Assembly: GCA_021413845.1 (NCBI GenBank)
Contig: JAIOPP010000026.1
Coordinates: 1-64,000 of the forward strand
Direction: 5' to 3'
DNA length: 64,000 nt
Source: Planctomycetia bacterium
GTDB taxonomy: Bacteria > Planctomycetota > Planctomycetia > Pirellulales > PNKZ01
The position numbers and the translations under genes were made by a program. The notes below the pieces were generated by a model. The model was not told the origin of the DNA. It searched no databases and worked only from the letters and a program-made list of their open reading frames with translations. Positions 1,982 through 36,852 of the stretch are shown here, piece by piece; position 1 is the first letter of the stretch; each line of letters begins with the position of its first letter.

Positions 1982-4900
1982 TCACCCTAAGGTGACCTGT
2001 ACTGCGTGATCGCGGCGATCATCGACCAGCCGCACTGCGAGCTCGGCTTGATCGACGCCATCAACCGTGAGTTGCTTGACCGTCGCGCCATCGCCGCCGC
2101 CGGCGATCGTGATGTGATACACGGTCTCTCGATAGCGGTAGTGGATCTTGAACGCCGGCCAACTCGCCGGAAGCCGCGGCTCGAAGCGGAGCCGATCCAC
2201 TTCCAGTCGCAGACCGACGAGCGACTCGGTGATGAGCCGGTACATCCATCCGGCCGAGCCGGTGTACCATGTCCAGCCGCCGCGGCCCGTGTGCGGTGCC
2301 ACCGAGTAGACATCGGCGGCGACGACATACGGCTCTACGCGATAGGTCGAGATCTCTTTCGCCGATGAGCCGTGCGCGATTGGGTTGATCATCGAGAAAA
2401 GTTCCCAAGCGCGCTCGGCTTCTCCCATCTTCGCAAACGCCATCACGGTCCAGATCGCCGCGTGAGTGTATTGGCCGCCGTTCTCGCGAACGCCCGGCAC
2501 GTAGCCTTTGATGTAACCGGGATTAAGGGCCGACTTGTCGAACGGCGGGTCAAGCAACTGAATCAACCGCGAATCGCGACGGACGAGTCGGCGCTCGACG
2601 TTCTCCATTCCCTTGTGCGCCCTTTCGAGTATCCCCGCACCGGAAAGCACCGCCCAGCTTTGCGACAACGAATCGATCTGACAGTCGATGTTCGTCGCCG
2701 AACCGAGCGGCTCGCCGTCGTCGAAGTAGGCCCGACGATACCAATCGCCGTCCCAGCCGTGAGCTTCGATGTTGCCGCGCAACCGGCCGGCTTCCAGGTC
2801 GTAGCGGTCGGCACGCGCGATGTCGCTGCGGCTTCTCGCCAACTCGGCGAATTGCGTCAGTACGTCGAACAAGAAGAAGCCGAGCCACACGCTTTCCCCT
2901 TTTCCCTCGGCGCCGACGAGGTTCATTCCGTCGTTCCAATCGCCGCAGCCCATCAACGGCAACCCATGCTCGCCGAAGCGCAAGCCGTTCTCGATCGCAC
3001 GGACGCAATGCTCATACAGCGTGTCGACATCGTCGGAGACTTGCGGCAGATCGTAGAACGCTTCTTCCTCAAGTCGAAGTGTCCGAGCCGTCAAGAACGG
3101 CACGCGTTCTTCGAGCACGCCCGTGTCGCCTGTGCCGGCCACGTAGCGACAAGCCGCGACCGGCAACCAAAGATAGTCGTCGGAGAAATGCGTCCGCACT
3201 CCTCGACCGGCCGGCGGATGCCACCAATGTTGCACGTCTCCTTCGCGGAACTGATGCGCGGCGGCGCGCAGTAAATGCGCTCGCAAAATGCCGGGCTCCG
3301 CATACTGCAGCGCCATCGCATCTTGTAATTGATCTCGAAAACCGAACGCTCCGCCCGACTGGTAGAAGCCGGTTCGGGCCCACATGCGACACGCGAGCGT
3401 TTGATAGACGAGCCAGCCATTCGCGAGAAAGTTGACCGCTGGGTCTGGTGTCTCCAAGTACACCGTGCCGAGCGTGCGACCCCAGTATCGCCATACCGCC
3501 TCGAGCGCGCGTTGCGCATTGCCGACACCGCGGAACCGGTCGATGAGCTGCCGCGCATCGGCCTCGGCGTTCGCTGCCCCGAGAATAAACACGATCTCTT
3601 TTTCGTGTCCGTCTTCAAGCTCCCATTGCACCTGCATCGCCGCGCAAGGATCTAGGCCCGGCCCAACGCGACCGGAAAGCCGCACGCGTCGCAGCGCCGC
3701 GGGATTGGCCGGCGTGCCGTTGCGGCCGAGGAATTCCATTCGGTCGGCGGTTACCGAGCGCATCGTTTCGCTACAGTCGACGAACGCGACTCGCTCGGAG
3801 AATTCGGTGCTGTATGCGTTGCGAGCGAAGAGTGCGCCGGTTGCCGAATCGAGTTCCGTGACGACGTGCATCAGCGTTTTATCTCGCAACTCGCCGAGCA
3901 CCCATTCCCAATAGCCGGTGACGGAGAGCGAGCGAGGCCGGCCCGAGCGATTCGCGATCTTGAGCTTGATGAACTTCACCGGCGCATCGGTCGCGACGAA
4001 CATACAGAGCTCGGTGGCGATGTCGTCTTCCGTGTGTTCGAAGATCGAATAGCCGAATCCGTGCCGTGTGGTGTATGGCTCTTTGCCGCGCGCCGGGAGC
4101 GGGGTCGGCGACCAGAAGCGACCGCTCTGTTCGTCGCGCAAGTAGAATGCCTCGCCGCAGACATCGGTCACCGGGTCGTCGTACCAGGGGGTCAGGCGGA
4201 ACTCGTGGCTGTTCTCGATCCAGGTATAGGCGCTGCCGCTTTCCGAGACGACGGTCCCGAAGTACGGGTTGGCGAGCACGTTCACCCACGGCGCCGGCGT
4301 CGTCCGTTCGGCGTTGAGAATCGTGACGTATTCGCGACCATCGGAAGTGAAGCCGCCGAGGCCGTTGAAGAAGACGAGATCGCTCCGAACGTGCTCGGCC
4401 GTCGAGAGCCGCGGCGCTGCCGGACGCCGCACGGGCTTAAACGGCGACGGAAACAGATCCGACCGGCCGCGACGTTCGATCTGCTCGGCGAATGTTCCTG
4501 CGTCGTCGAACAAAACCATTCGTGCGACGGTTAGGAGCAACGTTCGATCTTCTTCCGAGATCTGTTCGCCGCGCCGAATGAAAATCCCTCCCGGCTTGTC
4601 GAACATCACTCCTTCCGGGCTCGATACGATCAGATCGTGAATCGCATCTTGCAAGGTTTGCCGATACACCGAATCGTCTTCGTTCCAGACGACGAGGTCG
4701 ATCTTCAAACCTTTCAAGCGCCAATAAGCATGTGCTTGCACGGCTTGGCGAACCAACTCCATGTTGGCTTGATCGCGAATACGAACGAGCACGATCGGAA
4801 GGTCGCCGGAGATACCGTAGCCCCATAGGCCGGACTGTCCGCGACGGTTGCTGCCGATCAACGCCGGCTTCGCACGACGCAACGACGACGCGTAAATCAA

Positions 4901-7900
4901 AGAACCGGCCGAGCGCGTGTAGACCTGAGCTTCGGCTTCCGTGGCATTAAGCTGCCGCAAGAGAATCGAACTGTGCGTCCAAGCGAGTTCGAAGACGCGA
5001 TCCGAGAGTCGCGAATCGTGGTATTTGTCCATGATCACGGCGGCAGCATCGCGCGAGACGGCGACGCCCGTCACGAAATCGACGCGAACCGTTTCATTCG
5101 GCGCGATGAGAAGGACGCGGCGAATCGAAACGGAGGGATCGAGTACGGCCCCTTCGCTATCCGAAAGAATCGCTCCGCTATCCATCGCAGCAGGCGACGA
5201 AAGACTGCGCGACCGTCCGACGAAACGCATCCGGTCGGTCTCGAACGACGCTTCACCGACCGTGGTTCCTTGCACGGTCATGAGATGCACCATCCAGGGC
5301 GGAACCTCTTCGGCGGATCGGGCCCGACGCGTGCAGAGAATCGCCTGCCGATTGCGGACGAGTTCCGTTTGTACGAAGAGATTGCTGAACGCAGGATGCG
5401 CAAGGTCGTGGGCCGGAGCAGCGAGCACCACTTCGGCATAGCTCGTCACTTCGATCGTGCGCGGTGTGTCCGAACGGTTCGTGATCGAAATGCGCCGCAG
5501 TTCGACATCGTCTTCCGGTGAAACGGAAATCTCGGTGTACGTTTCGATTCCTTCGTCGCGCCGGCGAAACTCGGCTCGGGCCTGCGTGAAGATCGCTTCG
5601 TATTGCTTCGAGGGTTTTTGCGTCGGGTGGAACGCGGTCGACCAAAAGACGCCGCTCTCCTTATCGCGCAGATAGCAGAACGAGCCCCAGCAATCGCGGG
5701 TCGCGTCTTCGCGCCAGCGCGTGACGGCGAGATCGCCCCAGCGACTATAGCCGCCGCCGGCCGCCGTGATCATCAAGTGATACCGGCCGTTCGAGAGCAG
5801 GTTGATCTCCGGCGTCGGGCCGCTCGGATCGGTGTAGATCCGCATCGCACCCGGCTCGGCGACGGTCTCGATGCGCGTCGCATCGGCCTCGGCGGCGTGT
5901 GGAAAAATCGCGGCGGCTGCTTTCGGAACTCGCTCTTGCAAGAGTAAATCGGTGGCGAGCAGCATCGGATCGGCTTTGAAGCGACGTTGCATCGGCCGGT
6001 CGGCCAGCACGTAATCGATCGCCAGCAAGCTCATCCCTTGATGATGGGCCATAAACTGTCGCACGGCGACGCGTGAAGCACCGCGCGGCAATCGCGATGG
6101 GGTGTAGTCGATGGCTTCGTAGAGACCGTAGGCTCCTTGATGTCCGTCGTCGGCGAGCCGCTGCATGTTGCGACACGCGGCATCCGGCGCGACCATTAGC
6201 GCCAGAGCGCTCGCATAGGGTGCGACCACGAGATCTTCGGCAAGTCCGCGCTTGAGCCCGAGGCCCGGCACGCCGAACGCGCGATACTGGTACGTCAGGT
6301 GAACGTCGACGGTATTGAAGCCCGACTCGGAGATGCCCCACGGCACACCACGCTGCCGGCCGTAGTCGATCTGCCGCCGGACGACGGCGCGGTAGGTTTG
6401 ATCGAGCAGCGTGCTTTCGTACGTCGGCATCACCAAGAGCGGCATCAGATACTCGAACATCGACCCGCTCCAACTAAGCAAGGCCGAGCCGCCGCCGGTC
6501 GTCGTGAGGATCCGGCTGAGCGCAAACCAATGCTCTTGGCTCAGTTTTCCCTGCGCGATGCAGACGAAGCTGGCGAGCCGCGCTTCGGAGGCCAAGAGAT
6601 CGTAGAAGCTTTTGTCAGGCCGGCGTTCGCCGACGTCGTAGCCGATGATGAACAAGCTGTGCTTCTCGTCGAACAAGAACGAGAAATCCATTTCCGCTAA
6701 CGAGCGACATTGCCGAGCTGCAGTGGAGAGTTTTTCCGTGCGGTCGCTTGCGAAGCGAGCAGCACCGTCGACTGCGGTGCGTAGTTGCGTCCCCCAAGCT
6801 GCGATGGCGGCGCAAGCTTCGGGATCGGAGCATGATTTCGCGGGATCGTCTTTCAACAAGTCATCGAGCAGCGGCAGGACGGAACTGCGCAAAGCGGCGA
6901 CACCGCTCAGCGTGGCTACGGCATCAAGCTCGGCTTGGATCTTTTCGAACTGCGCGATCGGAACGGCAAGTGCCGTCTGTCGCAACGGCAACGCCGGCCG
7001 ATTGAGCGACGTCCAGGGAGTAAGACGTCGGAGGTCGGCGCGATGATCGGCGCAGTCGTGAGCGAATGCCCCGACCCATGCGCTCAGTTCGGCGTCGTCC
7101 GTGCTCGCGGCAGAGACTTCCGCTACGAGCGTCGCCAAGCGATCGAAAAATACCCCGGCCGATTTCGGCGAGAATTCGCGCGGCGTCAGTTCACCGACGA
7201 GCCGCTCCAGCATTCTCAGCACGACGACGGCCGACGACGGCAGCCCTGCGGCAGCATCAGCGCGATGGCGCTCATGAGCTGTTTCGAGGGCGACACGCAA
7301 CGTATCGCGCAGTCCGGAGAGAAACCGAGGGGCGACCAGCGGTGCGTCGATCTGTTCGAGCAAGCCCATTCGCAGCACCAGCAGATTGCCGGCGAGATTG
7401 CCGCTGTCGACGGTCGAGACGTAGAGCGGCCTTAGCGGCGCGAGCGAGCGTGTGTCGTACCAGTTATAGAAGTGGCCGCGGTAGCGCTCCATGCGGTCCA
7501 TCGTGCCGAGTGTGCGCTGGGTGCGCTCGAGCAGTCGACCGGCCGAACAATAGCCGAGATCGTAGGCCGCGAGATCGGCCAAGAGGCCCATACCGAGGTT
7601 GGTCGGGCTCGTACGCGAGGCGACCTGCGGGGCCGGGTGTTCTTGGTAGTTATCCGGCGGAAGCCAGTTCTCTTCCTTAGCCGCAAACGTTTCGAAATAG
7701 CGCCACGTGCGCCGTGCGACCGCACCGAGAAACTCTTGCTGTGAGTTCGATAGTCGCACTTGCGGCGGCGCCAACGGTCGGCTGAGCCACCACGCAACGG
7801 CGGGCGAGCACATCCAGAGAATCAAGAACGGTAATGCGACCGGAAGCGCGGCGCTGGAGAACAAGAATAGATACGCGCCGGCGAAGAGCGCGATCGTGGG

Positions 7901-12376: not shown

Positions 12377-12525
12377 ATGTATCGCTCCTTTACGCGGGCC
12401 AGATCTCCGAAGGCCTGGAACGGGCCGCTCAATAGCCCGTTCCTTCGATCATAACATGTGCCTGCGGCCGTCTCGAAAGGGGCAGCCACGGTTATTTGAT
12501 ACCGCTCGTACGAGAAAAGGCCGCG

Positions 12526-12611
12526 TTGTCGCCAGCCGTTTCGGAAGCTAGAACATCGAGATCGAGTCATCCCTGATCGGCCGCACTTCGGCGGTCTAAT
12601 TCTTGTTAGGC
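12526..12611 (+). repeat. attC-like site, copy 1 of a repeated sequence
   Basis: The right end holds GTTAGGC (12605-12611), which fits the integron consensus GTTRRRY. A start codon follows four bases later. The left part shares ttgtcgcc, gccgtt and aacatcgagatcgag with 34875-34949. The left core site is imperfect, so the call rests mainly on the right core, the duplicate copy and the adjoining cassette-type gene. Confidence 0.5.
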
Positions 12612-12615
12612 GACT

Positions 12616-13086
12616 ATGGATCCACGCTCCGAGATGCGGGAACTAGAGCGTCTCTATGGACGACCGGGCTTGGGCTCATTTACCGACGAGTTCCGTGCCC
12701 TGTGGAACTCTAGCAAGTGGGGAGATCGAATCAGAGAGGACCTGATAGAAGCACTAAAGCAGCACCAAACCGAAGCAATTGAAGACAGCATTTTGTACCT
12801 CGAAGAAAGTCCGCGATATTTTAATTCCGGCTACCGCAAGTGCTCGATCGCGAGCAAGCTCAAGAGTGCGCCCCTAACGTCAGAACAACGGCAACGGTTG
12901 TTGGCTATCATCCTGCGCGACGCAGCGTCTAAACGTATTGGACCTGAGTTCAGTGAATATGCGAGGTTGGCAGCAACTATCGCAACGCCCGCATTCGTGG
13001 ATGACGTCGTCCGCCTTAGGGATAAGTCCGAGGGTTGGGTTCGAGAGCGATGCGAACGGCTCCTGGGGCATTGTCGGCGCGCCTAA
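12616..13086 (+). CDS. Hypothetical cassette-borne protein
   Basis: A 156-residue soluble protein with no signal peptide. It is mostly helical, with Glu/Arg/Leu-rich segments that resemble HEAT-like immunity or repair-associated proteins; that resemblance is only a guess. The ATG lies five bases after the GTTAGGC core of the preceding attC-like site. The stop codon overlaps the left end (GCCTAA) of the next site. This tight packing is characteristic of integron gene cassettes. No recognisable family or catalytic motif. Expression probably depends on a promoter outside the cassette. Confidence 0.65.
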   Translation: MDPRSEMRELERLYGRPGLGSFTDEFRALWNSSKWGDRIREDLIEALKQHQTEAIEDSILYLEESPRYFNSGYRKCSIASKLKSAPLTSEQRQRLLAIILRDAASKRIGPEFSEYARLAATIATPAFVDDVVRLRDKSEGWVRERCERLLGHCRRA

Positions 13087-13203
13087 ACACGCGATCCAGC
13101 CGACCCGCAAGTCACGAAGCCGATTAGCTCGTCGGCTTCGAGTGCGTTAGACTCATGGCGAGCCCGTTTGCTTAGAGCGGGCGGCTAATTATGAGCGTTA
13201 GAC
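13081..13203 (+). repeat. attC-like site with two GTTAGAC cores
   Basis: The site begins with GCCTAAAC overlapping the previous stop codon, and contains GTTAGAC at 13146-13152 and again at 13197-13203. Between them is an imperfect hairpin (gcccgtt...gagcgggc). Most of the sequence, including gcgatccagccgacccgca and gatggcgagcccg-like segments, recurs at 35483-35593. Two right cores in a row suggest a composite or an empty cassette of about 50 bp. Confidence 0.6.
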
Positions 13204-13205
13204 TT

Positions 13206-13685
13206 ATGACCAGACGCTCCAAATTCGTCGTTGCCGCTGTGACGTTGAGCTTGGCAGCGACGTGGGTAATGTGGCCCCCACCGCCCTCGGCCGGGAACGC
13301 GGAGCACATCGCGTATCCACCTGATTACTTGGACGTTGCCGAAGCCGTCTTTCGCCATCAGTTCGATCACAACGCGTCCGGCACACAACGCCGGGTAAAA
13401 TACTTCTTCCTCAGCCTTGAGGCGAACGACCCGCCAAACGCCTTTCTAGCAAGGTTTGCAAATGAATGGTGGCCCTACGTGCGTCCCGCATCTATGGAAG
13501 CGCAGTTACGCGGCCCCAGATTGATCTTCTCCATTTCGTCCGTCAAATGGCTCGATGCCGATACTGCTGAGGTTGAAGGCGGCTATTATCACGATACTTT
13601 GTCGTCCTCCGGCAACCTTTACAGAGTCGAACGGCGGGCTGGCAAATGGTCCGTCACAAAGGATGAGCTAAAATGGATTTCGTAA
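13206..13685 (+). CDS. Hypothetical exported or anchored protein (cassette)
   Basis: A 159-residue protein. The ATG at 13206 is chosen because it lies two bases after the GTTAGAC core; an in-frame ATG at 13191 would lie inside the recombination site. Residues 5-22 form a signal anchor or signal peptide. The rest is a compact domain with many Trp, Tyr and Phe residues and alternating strands near the C-terminus ('YRVERRAGKWSV' type). This resembles small periplasmic domains that sense or bind, such as NTF2-like folds, but no family can be named. It is the second cassette gene and is followed by a clear attC site. Confidence 0.6.
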   Translation: MTRRSKFVVAAVTLSLAATWVMWPPPPSAGNAEHIAYPPDYLDVAEAVFRHQFDHNASGTQRRVKYFFLSLEANDPPNAFLARFANEWWPYVRPASMEAQLRGPRLIFSISSVKWLDADTAEVEGGYYHDTLSSSGNLYRVERRAGKWSVTKDELKWIS

Positions 13686-13718
13686 CCACAGCGGCATAGT
13701 CATGCATGCCCCGAGGCC

Positions 13719-13811
13719 GTCTAACAAGTCGCTCCACCAGACGCGGCAGCGTATACTCGTTTCCCAGATCAACACGCACCTGCCGCCGCGCAGGTGAGCA
13801 AATCGTTAGGC
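13719..13811 (+). repeat. attC recombination site (integron cassette)
   Basis: A 93-bp site bounded by GTCTAAC (13719-13725) and GTTAGGC (13805-13811). The inner part aagtcgctccacc pairs with ggtgagcaaatc, leaving one unpaired base, as in the L boxes of true attC sites. The centre contains a further short inverted repeat (cgcacctg/caggtg). This is the clearest attC in the window. Confidence 0.8.
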
Positions 13812-13827
13812 GTTAAAGGGTGCAGCG

Positions 13828-14250
13828 GTGTCTGGTTTCCACTCAAAACCGTCGCCAAGTACCGCAGCCGATCTTGCCGGGCTCCGTACCTCGTCACTCG
13901 CCGAGTTGCGCGCCGCCCGCATTCGCCGCGTCGCGCCGAAGTGGCTGCTGGTGCTTGCAGAATGGTCGAGAACACTAGCTCGCGCATCGTCTGTGGCCGT
14001 CGTTTTAGTTACGGGCTTCGGTTTCGCTTACTATCCGCGGCCTTGGTGCTCGCATTGGTCACCACGGAAAACGCTCAGTGTCGAAATCGTGGACACCGGT
14101 GCGGGATTCGCCATGCTCTCGCTATGTTGCTGCTTCCTAGCAGCATGTCTGTCGACTAGTTCGTGTACGTTCAAAGAACGCCCTTTGCGGCTGGCCGTTT
14201 GCCTCAATATCGCTGCCGTGCTTATGCGATTGTTTACGCCGGCTTGGTAA
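13828..14250 (+). CDS. Hypothetical membrane protein (cassette)
   Basis: A 140-residue frame starting at a GTG 16 bases after the attC core. It has three hydrophobic stretches (about residues 54-70, 92-110 and 124-137) and a Cys-rich segment around residues 97-112. The N-terminal 40 residues are basic. The composition of small membrane proteins like this is common among cassette genes. No family is recognised. A half attC site follows 20 bases after the stop. The frame could be shorter if translation starts internally; confidence is moderate because another frame overlaps it. Confidence 0.45.
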   Translation: MSGFHSKPSPSTAADLAGLRTSSLAELRAARIRRVAPKWLLVLAEWSRTLARASSVAVVLVTGFGFAYYPRPWCSHWSPRKTLSVEIVDTGAGFAMLSLCCCFLAACLSTSSCTFKERPLRLAVCLNIAAVLMRLFTPAW

Positions 14251-14269
14251 TCGCACGATTTAGCTCAAC

Positions 14270-14300
14270 GTCTAACCACTCGCTCCAGTCGACGCGATCA
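14270..14300 (+). repeat. Truncated attC site (left half only)
   Basis: GTCTAAC at 14270-14276 is followed by cactcgctccagtcgacgc, matching the left half of the site at 13719. No GTTRRRY partner is seen before the next gene ends at 14412. The cassette array therefore appears to have been cut off at this point. Confidence 0.6.
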
Positions 14301-14411
14301 CGGCGGTTCGACGAGCACGTTCCGCAGACGACCACGGATCCGTCGGTGTTGCCGAAAATAGTGTCGAATTGCTCCGGCGGCTAACCCGCTGCGATCCTCG
14401 GGAAGGACCGT

Positions 14412-16916: not shown

Positions 16917-17256
16917 GGGAGCCCTGCCTATTCACTGGGGAATTAACCGCGAAACCTAGAGCGAATACCGGCCAATCGGCGAGCATTATCCGGCGTCCCG
17001 AGCGACACGACAAGTAGGCTGGAGCAAATACGGAGACGAGATGCCGACCTAACTGGCGGTGAAAGCGGTAAGAGCCGAGCACGGGCGCCGCAACTGGTCC
17101 AAGGTCGGACCGAAGCTCTTGGCGAAGGCGCAGCATCCGGAGCGTCGGGCGAAGATAGCAAAGGGCGGCCAGACCGACGTCACGCATATGCGGAAACACG
17201 ACGAGCGTTCGCAACGGGTGTCGGCGACGATTGGCGTCGGTGATGACCGGCCTCGT
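16917..17256. other. Intergenic region without a confident gene
   Basis: Between the EF-hand gene start and the glycosyltransferase relic. A plus-strand frame at 17059-17325 begins with a Lys/Arg-rich stretch (residues 8-35) but overlaps the relic and has no ribosome binding site, so it is not called. Otherwise nothing is seen. Confidence 0.4.
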
Positions 17257-34058: not shown

Positions 34059-34293
34059 GAATGCTCCTCCTGTAGTCGAACTAGTTGCTACCAGGGACAG
34101 CCTAACACGTCGCTCCCTCACGGCGTAGCATGCGGACCCTTGCCCGCGGGTGCCGATTTGCCGGGTGGCGACCAAGATTGATCTTGCCCGAATGCATGCC
34201 GACGGCTTGAATGGTCCGCCCGGCTGCGCACCGGCCGAGTTCTCGACAATCGTTTTCTCTGCGCGCTTCCCTCTCCTTCTCAGGTGTACGTGA

Positions 34294-34788: not shown

Positions 34789-34874
34789 GCAACGGCGCAT
34801 GCGCGACACCGAACACGTCGCCCCCATGATCGATCCGGCGCACCGCTACCGCGACCGATTCAGAAACGACCGAT

Positions 34875-34949
34875 TTGTCGCCGGCCGTTCCGCACGTTAA
34901 AACATCGAGATCGAGCCATCCCCATTCGGCGGCCGAATACCTGTTAAGT
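34875..34949 (+). repeat. attC-like site, copy 2 of the 12526 repeat
   Basis: Shares ttgtcgcc, gccgtt and aacatcgagatcgag with 12526-12611, in the same order. It ends with GTTAAGT (34943-34949), which fits GTTRRRY. A cassette-type membrane-protein gene starts 18 bases later. As in copy 1, the left core is imperfect. Confidence 0.5.
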
Positions 34950-34967
34950 CAGGCATGCGCCATATTC

Positions 34968-35396
34968 ATGAGCGATAACTCAGTGCATCTGGCTTCTCGC
35001 GCGCTAAGGGGAATTTTACTAGCTCTCATGATCGTGAATTTAATTGGATTGTTCTGCCCCGTCGCAGAAAATCTTCATCAAGGAATGTTAGATAAGCCCG
35101 GTGATGAATGGTTCGGCTATGAACTAGTAATCTTTGGTTGCCTAGTGGCGATGGGCCTGCCATTCGCAATTGGATTAGTGTGTGTGATTGTTGCCGTACA
35201 GATGAAAACGATCGAGAGGAATGCCGTTATCGGCTTTTCACTTGCCTGGATCATTTACGCCCCGCCGATCATCTGGGTCTTGCTTACGGATAACGATACC
35301 AAGCGATACGGGTTTTATCTTGTATCCTTCCCTCCGATACTCTTAATCATCCCTGTCTTGATTGCATATAACATTAGAATCGTCCGTGCGCCGTAG
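34968..35396 (+). CDS. Hypothetical four-helix membrane protein
   Basis: A 142-residue protein with four hydrophobic helices (about residues 12-30, 45-70, 80-100 and 112-136) and a short basic tail. The start at 34968 is chosen because it lies after the attC-like core; a longer frame would read through the site. It uses AT-rich codons more than its neighbours, a sign of foreign origin. The last codons (Arg-Ala-Pro and the stop) lie in the 5'-truncated copy of the GGGTGGC repeat, so its natural C-terminus may have been replaced. No family is recognised. Confidence 0.6.
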   Translation: MSDNSVHLASRALRGILLALMIVNLIGLFCPVAENLHQGMLDKPGDEWFGYELVIFGCLVAMGLPFAIGLVCVIVAVQMKTIERNAVIGFSLAWIIYAPPIIWVLLTDNDTKRYGFYLVSFPPILLIIPVLIAYNIRIVRAP

Positions 35397-35484
35397 GCGC
35401 AAGAGGAATCGGGGATGTGGCTCGGCAAATTTGCGCCTCTTGTCGCTCCGCGACCCCGACAACGAGTTGTCGGGGCCACCCTGC
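35382..35484 (+). repeat. GGGTGGC repeat family, copy 1 (5' truncated)
   Basis: From gtccgtgcgccgtaggcgcaa to gccaccctgc. Compared with the other two copies it lacks the first ~20 bp (GGGTGGCACGGACAA). It keeps the inner gaggaatc/gcgcctctt elements and the hairpin ccccgacaac/gttgtcgggg. It supplies the stop codon of the preceding gene. Confidence 0.75.
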
Positions 35485-35593
35485 GATCCAGCCGACCCGC
35501 AGTCGAAGGTTGATTAGATCATCGATTCTGGGCGCGATAGACTGATGGCGAGCCCGCTCACTTCGAGCGGGCGGCTGATCACGATCGTTAGAC
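35483..35593 (+). repeat. attC-like site, copy 2 of the 13081 repeat
   Basis: Matches 13081-13203 over gcgatccagccgacccgca, gatggcgagcccg and gagcgggcggct. It ends with GTTAGAC (35587-35593), followed by an ATG after 16 bases. The hairpin gcccgctc/gagcgggc is perfect here. Confidence 0.55.
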
Positions 35594-35609
35594 GGAATTA
35601 GCTAGACCG

Positions 35610-36023
35610 ATGCACACCGACGTACATCAAGGATGGACCTTCTGTTTTCGTAAGAATGTCCATATGTATTGCCACAGTCTCAAGGCAGAAAAGAGTGGTA
35701 GGCAGTACAAAGTCCCATGCGAGGACACACCGACGGGCTTCGTCGGAATATGGCCGTATGACCTGAAGCTCGACGATTCAACCTATCGAGACCTTGTAGA
35801 AGCGTTACTCGAATGGGCTGCTTCCCTCGGATTGAAGTACAGACTTTACAAGACGCGGGACGAATACGCGGGGTGGCACGGACAACTTTGTTGTCCGTGC
35901 GCCGTAGGCGTAAGAGGAATCGTTTTGCGTCCCGATAACTTTACGCCTCTTGTCGCTGCGCGACCCCGACAACAAGTTGTCGCGGCCACCCTGCTCTTGC
36001 ACCTTCACCGTCGTACGTGTTAA
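35610..36023 (+). CDS. Hypothetical cassette protein, C-terminus from a repeat
   Basis: A 137-residue frame. The first ~86 residues look like a compact soluble domain (Trp, Tyr, Cys and Asp/Glu rich, no signal peptide). From residue 87 the frame enters the GGGTGGC repeat and becomes Cys/Arg/Val-rich low-complexity sequence that also occurs in reading frames of other copies. The native C-terminus is therefore probably lost, and the product may be non-functional. The ATG lies 16 bases after an attC-like core. No family is recognised for the N-terminal domain. Confidence 0.45.
   Translation: MHTDVHQGWTFCFRKNVHMYCHSLKAEKSGRQYKVPCEDTPTGFVGIWPYDLKLDDSTYRDLVEALLEWAASLGLKYRLYKTRDEYAGWHGQLCCPCAVGVRGIVLRPDNFTPLVAARPRQQVVAATLLLHLHRRTC
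35871..35993 (+). repeat. GGGTGGC repeat family, copy 2 (full length)
   Basis: About 123 bp with terminal inverted repeats GGGTGGC and GCCACCC. It contains two hairpins (cggacaac/gttgtccg at the left; ccccgacaac/gttgtcgcgg at the right) and no coding capacity of its own. It is inserted in the 3' part of a small gene. Confidence 0.8.
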
Positions 36024-36679: not shown

Positions 36680-36796
36680 GGGTGGCACGGACAAATGTCC
36701 GTGCGCCGTAGGCGTAAGAGGAATCGTTTTGTGTCCCGATAACTTTCGCCTCTTGTCGCTGCGCGACCCCGACAACAAGTTGTCGGGGCTACCCTG
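36680..36796 (+). repeat. GGGTGGC repeat family, copy 3 (full length)
   Basis: Same structure as the copy at 35871-35993 with a shortened left hairpin (cggacaaatgtccg) and the right hairpin ccccgacaac/gttgtcgggg. Terminal inverted repeats are GGGTGGC and the variant GCTACCC. It is intergenic here. Confidence 0.8.
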
Positions 36797-36852
36797 CTGA
36801 GCGGCCTGTCTAACGTCTTCTAATCTGCCTCACGTGTGGCGGACGCGTCACG

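Follow-up and report, generated by a model that had tools for sequence, protein, structure and literature searches.

CALINs, which are defined by their attC sites only, occur about as often as complete integrons do (PMC9024848). Off-target insertion, loss of the integrase gene (intI), and rearrangement have been proposed as their origins (PMC8618304). An early survey found that about a third of intI genes were pseudogenes, some of them via intragenomic duplication (PMC2426708), and in Xanthomonas integron activity has been lost and CALINs are present at several loci (PMC12444791). The attI sites outside class 1 have been called poorly described (PMC9024848). Pieces of attI within arrays are known from class 1 and class 2 integrons (PMC12901181), and ORF-11 of attI1 spans the crossover point and is translationally coupled to the first cassette (PMC8876359).

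We analyzed a stretch of 64,000 nucleotides (the window), which is part of contig C26 of a planctomycete genome (G000; 7.08 Mb, 167 contigs, 99.6% complete), and compared it with three other genomes of the same genus (G001, G002, and G003). The window contains a cassette array that an earlier note on this DNA had labeled a CALIN. With two attC sites close together (13081-13203 and 13719-13811) and no integrase in the assembly, the array indeed belongs there and, having no intI gene, is not a complete integron. The label was nevertheless incomplete, since the array starts at an attI-like leader and a second array is found at 34866-35593. We consider that the array is probably a decapitated integron, in which attC-bounded cassettes stand behind their own attI and intI has been lost. 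The window would thus carry a CALIN headed by an orphan attI at 12522-12611 and a second one at 34866-35593, and there are several such in the genome.

As in the CALINs described previously (PMC9024848), two full and one half attC sites accompany cassettes, with no intI nearby or in the assembly. In contrast with these, for which attI was not searched, the array has a conserved attI-like leader, present in many copies in the genome. It also resembles integrons with decayed intI genes (PMC2426708; Xanthomonas, PMC12444791), in which intI is truncated or lost while the cassettes stay, intragenomic duplication having been proposed for some. Here, however, intI stubs or nothing at all are found beside many dispersed attI copies, whereas the Xanthomonas platform is mostly one locus. 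In the open-licence full-text papers that we searched, we found no report of CALINs headed by a conserved attI that is present in many copies per genome.

attC sites and cassette genes of the first array

The GTTRRRY motif occurred 91 times in the window, as against 77 expected; because the motif alone was uninformative, whole sites were tested. A hand-written R''/R' scanner found both attC sites of the window, but shuffled sequence scored nearly as high, and covariance models were used instead: R1 for type B and R2 for type A attC sites, each built from 12 sites with those of the window excluded. R2 later matched attC sites beside the intI genes of relatives that the first hand-written scanner had missed. 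Its matches near full-length integron integrases in G053 (contig C3), G076 (C1), and G036 (C17) indicate that it recognizes the attC sites of ordinary integrons. A further model, R3, describes the leader and was built without the copy at 12522-12611. The first array comprises the following features.

12522-12611, plus strand: attI-like leader, shortened copy (R3; homology ending at the core; no attC fold)
12526-12554, plus strand: promoter-like pair, TTGTCG - 17 nt - TAGAAC (weak, 8/12 by eye)
12616-13086, plus strand: cassette 1 ORF, 156 aa (ORF call; structure prediction)
13081-13203, plus strand: type A attC of cassette 1 (R2, 96.6 bits, E = 2.3e-24; fold; alignment with relatives)
13191-13685, plus strand: cassette 2 ORF, 164 aa, alternative start at 13207 (ORF call)
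13719-13811, plus strand: type B attC of cassette 2 (R1, 79.3 bits, E = 7.8e-22; fold, z = -3.19)
13828-14250, plus strand: cassette 3 ORF, 140 aa, GTG start (ORF call)
14270-14297, plus strand: left half (R''-L'') of a type B attC, right half lost (pattern search; R1; alignment)

The three ORFs stand head to tail, as previously noted, behind GTTRRRY cores at 12605, 13197, and 13805. In both full attC sites, R''/R' cores are present and the L''/L' arms pair to form a hairpin in the bottom strand. The site at 13719-13811, which had been taken for a true attC, proved to be one, as none of 200 shuffles folded as well. In the case of 13081-13203, z was -2.08 and 6 of 200 shuffles were as good. Of the three sites whose bottom-strand folding the earlier note proposed as a check, these two folded and that at 12526-12611 did not; the attC covariance search proposed there, run with our own models, recovered the same two at the E values listed above. 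The boxes of 13081-13203 are R' GTTAGAC and R'' GCCTAAA, the latter altered with respect to GCCTAAC in relatives, while those of 13719-13811 are R'' GTCTAAC and R' GTTAGGC, its stem carrying additional bases on the R'' side. The window sites had no match in Rfam. A GTTAGAC at 13146 was rejected as an extra core because alignment placed it in the conserved middle of type A attC sites.

That the array ends in a half site at 14270 was borne out by the rarity of its R''-L'' pattern, found at 4 places in the 7.08 Mb of the genome and at 0 in the reversed control. The full R1 model gave only 18.6 bits for this site, and the bottom strand of 14262-14380 folded no better than shuffles. Judged from its sequence, the site is a truncated type B attC.

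A DNA search showed that relatives of both attC sites are dispersed across G000 and the genus. On alignment they formed two types, A (about 123 nt) and B (about 94 nt), each similar from R'' to R' with unrelated flanks, which fits the expectation for exchanged cassettes. Paired changes exceeded those in shuffles for type A; type B sites were too conserved for this to be judged. The two models gave 22 and 21 matches in G003 (40 contigs), some sites being matched by both. Half attC sites were also observed by alignment on contigs C9 and C112 of G000.

None of the three cassettes matched a curated family. Cassette 1 is predicted with high confidence to be all-helical with a HEAT-like fold, its structure matches being weak, and nothing matching it was found in G001, G002, or G003. 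The product of cassette 2 probably has a membrane anchor or signal peptide, as read from its sequence, and its domain is perhaps NTF2-like, again with weak structure matches. Its only relative in these three genomes (49% identity) was in one of them, at a different place. Another relative, in a genome from another family of the order (G113), lies between attC sites 4389-4517 and 5064-5154 of locus L259. The comparison of related genomes suggested in the earlier note thus showed that cassettes 1 and 2 are not conserved in place in the genus and that a relative of cassette 2 is found between attC sites elsewhere in the order. Cassette 3 is probably a small membrane protein, from a reading of its sequence, and had no match in plasmids. 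L259:1-9000 (G113:C285), which includes the relative of cassette 2, is itself a cassette array with several attC sites.

The leader as a candidate attI site

The segment 12526-12611, previously proposed as an attC, could not be retained as such or as a third attC type: it folded no better than shuffles, was without an R'' box, and matched neither R1 nor R2. It is a different conserved element, matched by R3 at 12522-12603 (27.6 bits, E = 1.2e-7) and ending in a recombination core, GTTAGGC, at 12605-12611. Fuller copies of this leader contain two direct repeats TGCGGCATAGCACGG 22-23 nt apart, a stretch GTCGCAACTCGTTT, an inverted repeat, and a tail TTCGGCGGTCGAATACCTGTT; the copy at 12522-12611 is without the inverted repeat. 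No real covariation was found in the consensus structure of the leader.

Leaders stand at the 5' end of arrays, with unrelated cassettes starting at the G|TT core. When aligned across loci, the copies are alike up to the GTT core and unrelated beyond it; they thus share a sharp 3' boundary at the core, whereas their 5' ends are ragged. Insertion of cassettes at the core, with loss of intI from the opposite side, would be expected to leave this pattern. Because it heads arrays, has such ends, and adjoins divergent intI remnants (see below), we propose that an integron family of this order has its attI site, and perhaps a cassette promoter, in this leader, both the attI and the promoter activity being inferred.

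R3 had 8 matches in G000, 8 in G003 (including a few reverse-strand echoes from the inverted repeat), 3 in G002, and 2 in G001, as well as one to three in each of seven further genomes of the order, including G034. The 20-mer TCGGCGGYCGAATACCTGTT was found exactly in 34 stretches among 84,980 genomes, nearly all planctomycete MAGs, with about one expected by chance as estimated from the length of the pattern and the size of the collection. Most of these stretches bear a full leader, the exceptions without one being L188, L216, and L217. TCGGCGGYCGAATACCTGTT can thus serve as a sequence tag to find such arrays without a search for integrase or attC. Among 54 leaders, 27 were followed by an attC on their own strand in the next 1.5 kb, and none by one on the opposite strand; three leaders had an attC upstream, and the window leaders had none within 1.5 kb upstream. 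Some of the leaders with no attC detected downstream (half of the total) are near contig ends; some of their arrays may have decayed, or their attC sites may lie outside our models.

Seven of the eight G000 leaders formed one clade (96/94) in a tree built from 52 leaders, the two window leaders were sisters (99/86), and genome labels clustered beyond all shuffles. This clustering by genome means that copies either multiplied within genomes or were kept alike there; the mode of multiplication is one that we infer. That some leaders travel with cassettes is suggested by leader-gene-leader units in tandem (L192, L205, L206, and L209) and by a leader, L208, with attC sites both upstream and downstream. 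Two or three attI-like leaders were seen in tandem in one contig at L192, L202, L205, L206, and L209, mostly with no attC detected between them.

Most leaders contain an open frame that crosses the presumed crossover, where it reads ...FYRTSAVEYL|L/F. Its ATG lies 19 codons upstream of the core in other genera and 11 codons upstream in this genus. The synonymous share was 0.345 in this frame, compared with 0.23 and 0.25 in the other frames and 0.26 expected, which is only suggestive of coding. First cassettes were not in frame with this ORF clearly more often than one time in three. Like ORF-11 of attI1 (PMC8876359), it is a short ORF that spans the crossover and could couple translation to the first cassette; in contrast to ORF-11, its sequence is unrelated, no Shine-Dalgarno is visible by eye, the coding evidence is weak, and in the leader of the first array the frame is closed by a TAA. 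For the first cassette, the leader may still serve both as a promoter and as a translation leader.

The pair TTGTCG/TAGAAC at 12526-12554 keeps its spacing in the leader copies of G000. It fell under the limit of the promoter scan, and to call it promoter-like is only a suggestion. The shortened leader at 12522-12611 may no longer be a recombination substrate. As for empty sites, on the right side the neighboring gene (peptidase M19) has no counterpart in the other genomes of the genus, and on the left side the flank meets a contig end in G003.

Integrase remnants and the origin of the arrays

The earlier observation that the window contains no integrase extends to the whole genome: with TIGR02249, no integron integrase exceeded the family cut-off anywhere in the G000 assembly, and a protein search gave weak, Xer-like matches only. 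Within the genus, full-length IntI was found only in G002. No intI remnant adjoins the leader at 12522-12611. In relatives, by contrast, the leader is next to truncated, divergent intI genes. In G034 its core lies 207 nt from the start of such a gene, which is recognizable to residue 228 and then gives way to unrelated sequence. Remnants of about 55 and about 44 residues are found at L198 and L201, with core-to-start distances of 240 and 209 nt, respectively, and G025 has two, of about 51 (L167) and about 10 residues (L168). No complete intI adjoining this leader family was found among the leader loci; the attI identity accordingly rests on truncated neighbors.

We also observed stubs of a second, G002-like intI type, of 54 and 21 residues, respectively, at G003:C6:182739-182900 (L063) and G003:C5:168330-168464 (L178). 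They adjoin attC arrays, where the leader model had no match, and there is probably a second attI family in the genus.

In the decapitated integron that we favor, an integron integrase would have inserted the cassettes, each carrying its attC, at the G|TT of the leader core (12605). Copies of the attI-cassette unit would then have reached several places in the genome, intI would have been lost upstream, leaving ragged breakpoints, and the array would have persisted in place without the enzyme; the sites could still be used in trans by an integrase gained later. The origin of CALINs is debated, and a conserved attI head together with intI stubs of varied length in relatives is evidence for the route by loss of intI. 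A broader reading, which we find rather doubtful, is that the order runs a multi-platform integron, with dispersed stand-alone attI-promoter heads multiplied in each genome and served in trans by an occasional integrase, capture and expression being uncoupled from an on-site intI.

The within-genome clade of leaders, the leader-gene-leader tandems, and the attC sites on both sides of L208 would also be accounted for if the leader spread within cassettes, either in a cassette bearing its own attI and promoter or in attI-gene-attI form, in which case the copies would not be remnants of whole integrons. Class 1 and 2 integrons do contain cassettes of the attI type, which can be excised (PMC12901181); there too more than one copy of attI is present, and the attI-ORF-attI arrangement resembles the tandems at L192, L205, L206, and L209. 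In those cassettes, however, pieces of attI (most often 14-18 nt) replace the attC behind a gene, whereas here long leaders precede arrays. Moreover, several copies keep upstream 5' pieces of intI with differing breakpoints, which a cassette would not carry, and the window leaders are without an attC in the 1.5 kb upstream. We regard such a spread as quite improbable.

Off-target insertion by an integrase encoded elsewhere, at a non-attI (attG-type) site, would make the leader an upstream promoter region only. Such an origin of CALINs is possible (PMC8618304), insertion at attG sites is described in literature cited in PMC12901181, and the window leader itself has no intI stub beside it. Off-target sites would, however, have only a few bases around the core in common, whereas the same leader, identical in kind across loci and families, stands in front of arrays at many unrelated loci, ends sharply at the core, and adjoins intI remnants in relatives; this makes an off-target origin very unlikely. 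It is harder still to believe that intI stands beside one or more leaders in the cell and is merely missing from the draft genome. Draft genomes do inflate CALIN counts (PMC9024848), and several IntI genes of relatives are near contig ends, but the window leader lies deep in a long contig, flanked on either side by unrelated genes, and G003, with 40 contigs and 99% completeness, has many leaders and attC sites, yet no complete IntI. The decapitated integron remains the reading that we prefer.

A second array and dispersed repeats in the window

A second integron-like array, consisting of a leader, a cassette ORF, a type A attC, and a further ORF, was observed at 34866-36023.

34866-34949, plus strand: second attI-like leader, sister of the first (R3 matches at 34866-34921 and 34923-34946; tree 99/86)
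34968-35396, plus strand: first cassette ORF, membrane protein, in frame with the short ORF of the leader (ORF and frame reading)
35475-35593, plus strand: type A attC (R2, 92.2 bits, E = 3.7e-23)
35610-36023, plus strand: second ORF (ORF call)

The core of this leader is GTTAAGT (34943-34949). The R'' end of the attC is overwritten by a repeat. Isolated left halves of attC sites, or R''-like cores without a right half, are present at 34100-34116 and 36808-36814 (GCCTAACACGTCGCTCC; GTCTAAC) and resemble the site at 14270.

A repeat of roughly 100 nt with short inverted ends occurs in three copies (35381-35484, 35892-35994, and 36696-36797), and sequence similar to it directly adjoins leaders on contigs C9 and C13; the repeat is possibly a REP- or MITE-like element. 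Two other short repeats of the window are also dispersed in the genome: 11064-11138 has copies about 91% identical on contigs C6 and C15, and 17064-17156 has a copy about 86% identical on contig C102.
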